From a virus, in the IMG/VR virus record IMGVR_UViG_3300017760_000044, positions 1-31,057 of that record: a stretch of DNA of 31,057 nt; one strand, written 5' to 3'. Below, piece by piece: positions 27,101 through 27,468 of the stretch. The notes beneath the pieces were generated by a model that was given only the letters and a program-made list of their open reading frames with translations, searched no databases and had not been told where the DNA came from. A program made the translations under genes and the position numbers. Position 1 is the first letter of the stretch; each line of letters begins with the position of its first letter.

Positions 27101-27120
27101 ATTAACATTTGATTGTTAAT
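27101..27120 (+). terminator. AT-rich hairpin after the phosphoesterase gene
   Basis: ATTAACA (27101-27107) pairs with TGTTAAT (27114-27120) around TTTGAT, immediately after the stop codon, followed by AAAG and a T run of five. With one G-C pair only it is a weak terminator, but it is the only one before the early promoter. Confidence 0.35.
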
Positions 27121-27136
27121 AAAGTTTTTAGTGTGT

Positions 27137-27170
27137 TTTGTAATTTGTATTATAATTATATATATATTTA
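27137..27170 (+). promoter_or_regulatory. Probable early promoter
   Basis: TTTG (27137-27140) and TATATTTA (27163-27170) resemble the Bacteroidota boxes, but with a 22-nt spacer and one mismatch. A second TTTG at 27144-27147 would give 15 nt. Location upstream of the structured leader and the early operon supports promoter function. Confidence 0.5.
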
Positions 27171-27214
27171 CAACCATAAACTTAAAAACAAACAAAATAT
27201 ATAAGGCAATTATA

Positions 27215-27240
27215 GACAGGAACAATAACCTATGACAAAC
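27215..27240 (+). repeat. 26-nt direct repeat, copy 1
   Basis: Starts GACAGGAACAATAACC and ends GACAAAC; identical to 27253-27278, with a 38-nt period. AGG and CCT inside it can pair around AACAATAA. Confidence 0.95.
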
Positions 27241-27252
27241 TTATAATGAATT

Positions 27253-27278
27253 GACAGGAACAATAACCTATGACAAAC
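27253..27278 (+). repeat. 26-nt direct repeat, copy 2
   Basis: Exact second copy of 27215-27240, separated by 12 nt. I saw no further full copy in the window. Confidence 0.95.
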
Positions 27279-27312
27279 AAATTCACGCCTTATATATTAT
27301 AAACAAACAATT

Positions 27313-27468
27313 ATGAGTAGAGAAATATCATACACAACAAGAACCTTTTACGTGCCAGCAGAGAAAATAGAAACGCTGGTTAAGTTTCAAGGCAAATGCA
27401 AAGAGAATGGACACAAATCTTATTCTGAAGTATTACTTAGTTTAATGGAAAAATATAATGAGCAATGA
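27313..27468 (+). CDS. 51-aa ribbon-helix-helix-like DNA-binding protein
   Basis: From ATG 27313 to TGA 27466-27468, overlapping the next ATG in an ATGA junction. The layout fits Arc/CopG-like proteins: a strand at about 5-14 (ISYTTRTFYV), helix 16-31 (AEKIETLVKFQGKCKE), a GHKSYS turn and helix 37-48 (SEVLLSLMEKYN). As the first gene after the early promoter and repeat-bearing leader, it may autoregulate that region; ribbon-helix-helix dimers commonly bind paired repeats. Assignment rests on secondary-structure pattern only. Confidence 0.65.
   Translation: MSREISYTTRTFYVPAEKIETLVKFQGKCKENGHKSYSEVLLSLMEKYNEQ

Follow-up and report, generated by a model that had tools for sequence, protein, structure and literature searches.

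The put sequence of phage HK022 consists of two adjacent, different hairpins in the leader of the early transcript and is needed for early transcription. The packaging RNA of phage phi29 (pRNA) is an essential RNA built on a three-way junction, with a loop on each of two arms; these complementary loops serve ring assembly. Tandem repeats in an RNA upstream of a gene characterize the RNA antitoxins of type III toxin-antitoxin systems (ToxI, CptI and TenpI), and MITE and palindromic repeat elements are short and non-coding, with inverted terminal repeats and precise empty sites. RNA-based anti-CRISPRs (Racrs, or solitary repeat units) are small, non-coding phage sequences that bear a repeat (PMC10651486).

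The stretch analyzed here, which we call the window, is a 31,057-base record of a tailed phage (terminase, portal and tape-measure families). By terminase its nearest named relatives are the Nonlabens phages P12024L/S (~52% identity), and a host of the Flavobacteriaceae type is therefore likely. Computation of repeats revealed a 103-nt element on the plus strand (27196-27298) in which an outer stem of 12 bp (12/12 complementary) encloses two adjacent inner stems of unlike sequence, of 6 and 5 bp (Table 1). Each inner stem closes a 27-nt loop, both loops contain an identical 26-mer at a spacing of 38, and the junction is tight (1, 0 and 2 unpaired nt). The initial annotation had described a 12-bp inverted repeat around two shorter ones that present the same 26-nt loop, and this arrangement is present exactly as claimed. 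Even with up to 3 mismatches allowed, the 22-nt core of the repeat matches nowhere else in the window. In the window the element is sense-oriented and lies directly downstream of a strongly conserved promoter-like sequence: aligning the window with 30 relatives showed almost no variation in the block TTTTG...TATATTTAC, and the promoter consensus in the literature is TTTG...TAnnTTTG.

Table 1. Features of the early operon start in the window, in order of position.
Feature	Position	Strand	Basis or remark
Bacteroidota-type promoter-like sequence of the early operon: TTTTG 27136-27140, TATATTTAC 27163-27171	27136..27171	+	Alignment
Left leader motif AAACAAACAA, cassette edge	27186..27195	+	Direct repeat with 27301-27310; single copy at the L020/L028 empty site
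Outer stem, 5' arm AATATATAAGGC	27196..27207	+	Sequence, repeat computation, fold, copies compared
Stem 1, 5' arm ATTATA	27209..27214	+	Sequence, fold, shuffles
Loop copy 1, 26 nt, GACAGGAACAATAACCTATGACAAAC; mini-stem AGG 27218-27220 / CCT 27229-27231	27215..27240	+	
Stem 1, 3' arm TATAAT	27242..27247	+	Sequence, fold, shuffles
Stem 2, 5' arm GAATT	27248..27252	+	Sequence, fold, shuffles
Loop copy 2, identical 26 nt; mini-stem AGG 27256-27258 / CCT 27267-27269	27253..27278	+	
Stem 2, 3' arm AATTC	27280..27284	+	Sequence, fold, shuffles
Outer stem, 3' arm GCCTTATATATT	27287..27298	+	Sequence, repeat computation, fold, copies compared
Right leader motif AAACAAACAA plus TT, A-rich translation-start region outside the stem	27301..27312	+	Edge common to L001/L002/L158
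First early gene, 51 aa, lineage core gene, Arc-like ribbon-helix-helix (weak fold match)	27313..27468	+	

When compared to the systems above, the element resembles put in that two neighboring hairpins would form in an early phage leader, but its loops are identical, an outer stem encloses both, and most relatives lack it. A put-type RNA, as a constant part of the early leader, was rejected, since the element is absent from 66 of the 69 readable slots after the exonuclease gene and from 50 whole records of relatives. With phi29 pRNA it shares a (predicted) phage three-way junction with two loop-bearing arms; a packaging RNA of this type was discarded because the loops are identical rather than complementary (kissing) and the element is optional. 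The tandem repeats are similar in length to those of type III antitoxins and likewise lie upstream of a gene, but no toxin-like gene is found downstream, the neighbors coding for a 51-aa Arc-like or an unrelated 97-aa protein, and this candidate was rejected as well. Perfect 12-bp terminal inverted repeats and precise empty sites recall MITEs, whereas dispersed copies were found in neither viruses nor hosts and the same element occurs only in three other phages (L001, L002 and L158); as to a target site, AAACAAACAA stands on both sides of the element and once at the empty sites of L020 and L028, and the motif flanks the other location too. Like Racrs, the element is small, non-coding, repeat-bearing, optional and not tied to one gene. 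As for their position directly downstream of a promoter, a promoter-like sequence immediately precedes the element in the window and L158 but not in L001 and L002. Racrs mimic a CRISPR direct repeat of the host; the repeat here is not recognizable as one (no Rfam CRISPR family and no near match in 301 genomes of a Flavobacterium's family) and stands in two copies within a closed, predicted three-way junction.

The three-stem, twin-loop architecture is non-random. In a shuffle test in which the loops were kept fixed and the rest was shuffled 200,000 times, a stem at least as long as the observed one flanked the loop by chance with P = 0.011 for stem 1 and P = 0.011 for stem 2 (both: P = 1.8e-4), an enclosing outer stem of the observed length arose with P = 1.9e-4, and all three stems together appeared in 0 of the 200,000 shuffles. 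A scan of the loci collected at that stage showed no other element with this architecture. Folding of the region, which the initial annotation had proposed as a check, gave z = -3.2 for the whole region as RNA; the element alone as DNA gave z = -3.6 and the minus-strand RNA z = -3.8. At 37°C the outer stem is virtually certain in each of the four copies (pairing ~1.0), stem 2 pairs at ~0.7, and stem 1 at only ~0.15 because UUAUAG/CUAUGA competes with it. Of the temperatures modeled (10, 20 and 37°C), only the lowest gave the full three-way junction as the minimum-energy fold, in which each arm gains an AGG/CCU mini-stem; the stability of the arms may depend on cold water, tertiary contacts or a partner. 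A minus-strand RNA folds better (-23 vs. -16 kcal/mol), yet it was rejected: each of the four copies lies in the sense orientation of its operon, and the sole substitution within a predicted pair is tolerated on the plus strand only.

This substitution, an A to G change at 27256 in L158, turns A-U into G-U on the plus strand and on the minus strand would give A-C and break the pair. The four copies show no differences other than three substitutions and an inserted A, none of which falls in the three long stems, and the predicted pairs are kept in all copies (30/30); none shows a compensatory change, because the copies are too alike. Loss of the stems with retention of the repeats, the pattern that the initial annotation had named as speaking against it, is not seen among the four, a check with almost no power given how little the copies differ. 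The other two substitutions, also in L158, are the same C-to-T change at the equivalent position of both loops (27236 and 27274), which would fit two loops serving one partner; gene conversion between the repeats could look the same.

Exact searches of 2.9 million viral contigs with the loop recovered two further phages, L001 and L002. The third, L158, was found among relatives of the upstream exonuclease gene and again by a degenerate tandem-loop search, whose extra matches look like repeat-type coding or low-complexity sequences and were discarded. Searches with the outer stem and with a single loop copy gave no carriers beyond these four, matches to a pattern with 10-bp arms in the 2.9 million viral contigs were limited to these phages, and an exact 21-mer had 0 matches in 84,980 bacterial and archaeal genomes. 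Of 74 exonuclease loci, 69 could be read after the exonuclease gene, and three of these carry the element (L019 = L002, L027 = L001 and L029 = L158). A covariance-model search of related phage genomes, likewise suggested at the outset, brought no credible further copy in the 50 whole records: one match had E = 0.53 and was rejected, as was a weak match in L033 that lies within coding sequence.

In L020 and L028 the site is empty, with the promoter followed by ACTTAAAAACAAACAATTATGAGTAGAGAA; relative to it, the window has 103 nt, AT and a second AAACAAACAA inserted before TTATGAG. The cassette comes first after the promoter in the window and L158, upstream of the 51-aa gene. In L001 and L002, by contrast, it lies inside the operon, after two different small ORFs and before a 97-aa gene that is unrelated to the 51-aa gene and without a significant Pfam match, so that the described position between the early promoter and the first early gene holds for only two of the four carriers. 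Both downstream genes also exist without the element (the 97-aa gene in L008, L009, L023 and L051). Across the two operon contexts the element is sense in 4/4 copies, and it is 97–100% identical among carriers, when compared to mostly ~80–90% for the aligned flanks and mostly 84–95% for neighboring genes. On a poorly resolved tree of the exonuclease gene the carriers are scattered, with 4 changes, at least 2 of them forced by well supported branches. On both sides the shared block ends at the A-rich gene-leader motif AAACAAACAA(TTATGA), and recombination at gene leaders would therefore explain the pattern without a transposase.

These observations show that the element is independent of the next gene, optional, provided with defined edges and more conserved than its surroundings. 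Since it is rare among relatives, has an empty site and precedes two unrelated genes, we conclude that it is an optional sense cassette moved by phage mosaicism and not the fixed regulator of one gene. What the initial annotation had called an early-leader RNA regulator thus stands as a structured, sense-oriented element downstream of a promoter-like sequence, with stems kept in all four copies, but not as a standard leader of the early operon, given its absence from most slots and its two gene contexts.

Homologs of the gene downstream of the element in the window were matched in 131 loci, not all of them on separate contigs. Its 51-aa product is modeled as helix-helix (mean pLDDT 85), the best PDB match being the Arc repressor at a non-significant E of 0.99, and no significant Pfam or PHROGs match was found; judged by the model, it could be an Arc-like DNA-binding protein. 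In F. johnsoniae, an A at -3 and mRNA structure tune translation starts (PMC6847099). The AAACAAACAATTATG start, with an A at -3, remains largely single-stranded when the element is folded (mean unpaired probability of the translation-start region, 0.74–0.89 at 37°C), and simple start-site sequestration is therefore unlikely. Most relatives have a different ORF in first place after the early promoter, indicating that the slot after the exonuclease gene (window ~27180-27312) is an accessory position; such a hypervariable slot may be a home of counter-defense genes. The early regions of relatives are otherwise densely coding, and the element is one of few non-promoter gaps of at least 60 nt.

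No Rfam 15 family matched in the window at the gathering threshold, and at E ≤ 10 there was one unrelated chance match (DapZ) elsewhere, in keeping with the first impression that the element is no recognized riboswitch. Blastn against known phages and plasmids returned only weak chance matches. An antisense to, or mimic of, a conserved 23S rRNA hairpin was rejected, as the score of the loop against a Flavobacterium 23S locus did not exceed that of shuffled loops; the loop's complementarity to the phage's own genome was no better than that of shuffles either. Within 3 mismatches, the 26-mer is absent from 301 genomes of a Flavobacterium's family, which may not be the family of the host. Matches to an 18-mer in 20 genomes and to a 17-mer in 13 further viral contigs mostly encode TGTITY-type peptides, and no second copy or element was visible in the flanks shown around these matches.

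From its sequence, we tentatively read the element as an accessory RNA-level cassette with twin binding loops, an explanation to which we give somewhat less than an even chance. It would be an optional, non-coding structured RNA in the accessory slot that opens the early operon, and the promoter suggests sense transcription together with the early mRNA. The 12-bp stem would fold the cassette into a compact, self-contained unit in which each arm presents the same 26-nt surface, and the two copies may be equal binding sites for one partner, e.g., a dimeric or multi-site host or phage protein. It may act as a stand-alone or decoy RNA in early infection, comparable to the small accessory protein genes in the same slot of other phages; this role is favored because the cassette is portable, does not depend on the next gene and is lacking in most relatives. 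We regard it as more likely than a switch for the next gene, but taken by itself the decoy or trans role is rather doubtful. Against the twin-loop reading speak the weakness of stem 1 at 37°C, the lack of compensatory changes and the restriction of the element to four copies in one lineage, and its constant place just ahead of a start codon would equally suit a cis-acting leader. Distinctly improbable is the more specific idea of a phage-encoded, exchangeable decoy whose clamped junction shows a 26-nt ligand twice and traps a host defense or RNA-processing factor, as an RNA counter-defense gene that does not mimic a CRISPR repeat, in a slot where relatives carry small accessory proteins.

A portable cis-acting leader is the main rival of the twin-loop cassette; we rank DNA mobility, operator and coding readings lower. 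Such a leader would control or stabilize the mRNA of the next gene, as a protein-bound leader, an anti-terminator, a 5' stabilizer or a ligand sensor. The start codon that always follows within 12–20 nt, the sense strand, the exposed start region and the conserved promoter upstream all agree with it, and in other relatives another invariant hairpin insert occupies the same place. Two unrelated downstream genes, each also found without the element, argue against it, as do the location inside the operon in L001 and L002 and the failure to find a terminator or start-site sequestration tied to an alternative fold, and we consider it unlikely. A cassette that moves or recombines as DNA, either MITE-like with 12-bp terminal inverted repeats and a target duplication or as a recombinase hairpin, would account for the perfect terminal repeat, the flanking direct repeat AAACAAACAA, the precise empty sites, the two locations, the near-identity of the copies and the folding as DNA (z = -3.6). 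However, neither the 2.9 million viral contigs nor the 84,980 bacterial and archaeal genomes hold other copies, this model leaves the internal twin loops without a role, and AAACAAACAA need not be a target duplication because the same motif flanks both sites and is an ordinary gene leader; DNA mobility thus appears improbable.

Direct repeats 38 bp apart next to a gene whose 51-aa product weakly resembles the Arc repressor could also suggest a DNA operator or iteron, with the 26-mers bound by a DNA-binding protein such as that product. Yet the Arc-like gene occurs in 131 loci and the element in four phages, the promoter regions of 30 element-less relatives have no more loop words in common with the 26-mer than with shuffled loops, and three nested stems are left unexplained, making this reading very unlikely. 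The same low standing goes to a coding element, either a short ORF (TTG at 27251, MTGTITYDKQIHALYIINKQL*) or upstream mini-ORFs (ATG at 27233 and 27271). It is kept alive at this low probability because all three L158 substitutions are synonymous in the TGTITYDK frame; the ORF also ends in an ATGA overlap with the next gene, and elsewhere the 18-mer lies mostly inside genes, often in this frame. On the other hand, a stop precedes the frame in copy 1, in L001, unlike L002, the frame continues into the next gene, the loop ATGs lack an A at -3, the favorable base in Flavobacterium (PMC6847099), and the stems again find no explanation.

Should the twin-loop cassette be a decoy for a host factor, RNA-based counter-defense would extend beyond mimics of CRISPR repeats. 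Optional non-coding RNA genes in phages are hard to see because annotation lists proteins only. The visible empty site, the cassette edges and the two gene contexts mean that the element can be removed, moved and mutated cleanly, and the junction with twin identical loops is an unusual design that predicts one partner with two sites.

We also observed other features in this part of the early region. Just upstream of the promoter in the window, ATTAACATTTGATTGTTAAT (27101-27120) is a palindrome with 7-bp arms (ATTAACA..TGTTAAT) that is nearly invariant in 30 relatives and, by its sequence, a candidate terminator or operator. After the exonuclease gene, L005, L008, L012, L019, L023, L031, L032, L051 and L072 have a second promoter-region class (TAAGGGGTAGAATAATTTTTTT...) in place of the common TAGAATTAACATT class. 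In L053, ~80–200 nt after position 913, there is a 30-codon ORF with a TTG start and an 11-bp inverted repeat (GTCAAAAGAGA/TCTCTTTTGAC) at its ends. In several relatives the same early promoter is followed immediately by another non-coding insert, the nearly invariant AAAAAGCAGTTGACGAACAACGTAAAACTTTTTAAAATAATT, ahead of different ORFs (L001, - strand, ~3931 of the reverse complement; L040/L043, L046, L080, L081, L083, L095, L124 and L186), which can fold as AAAAAG..CUUUUU plus GUUG/CAAC.
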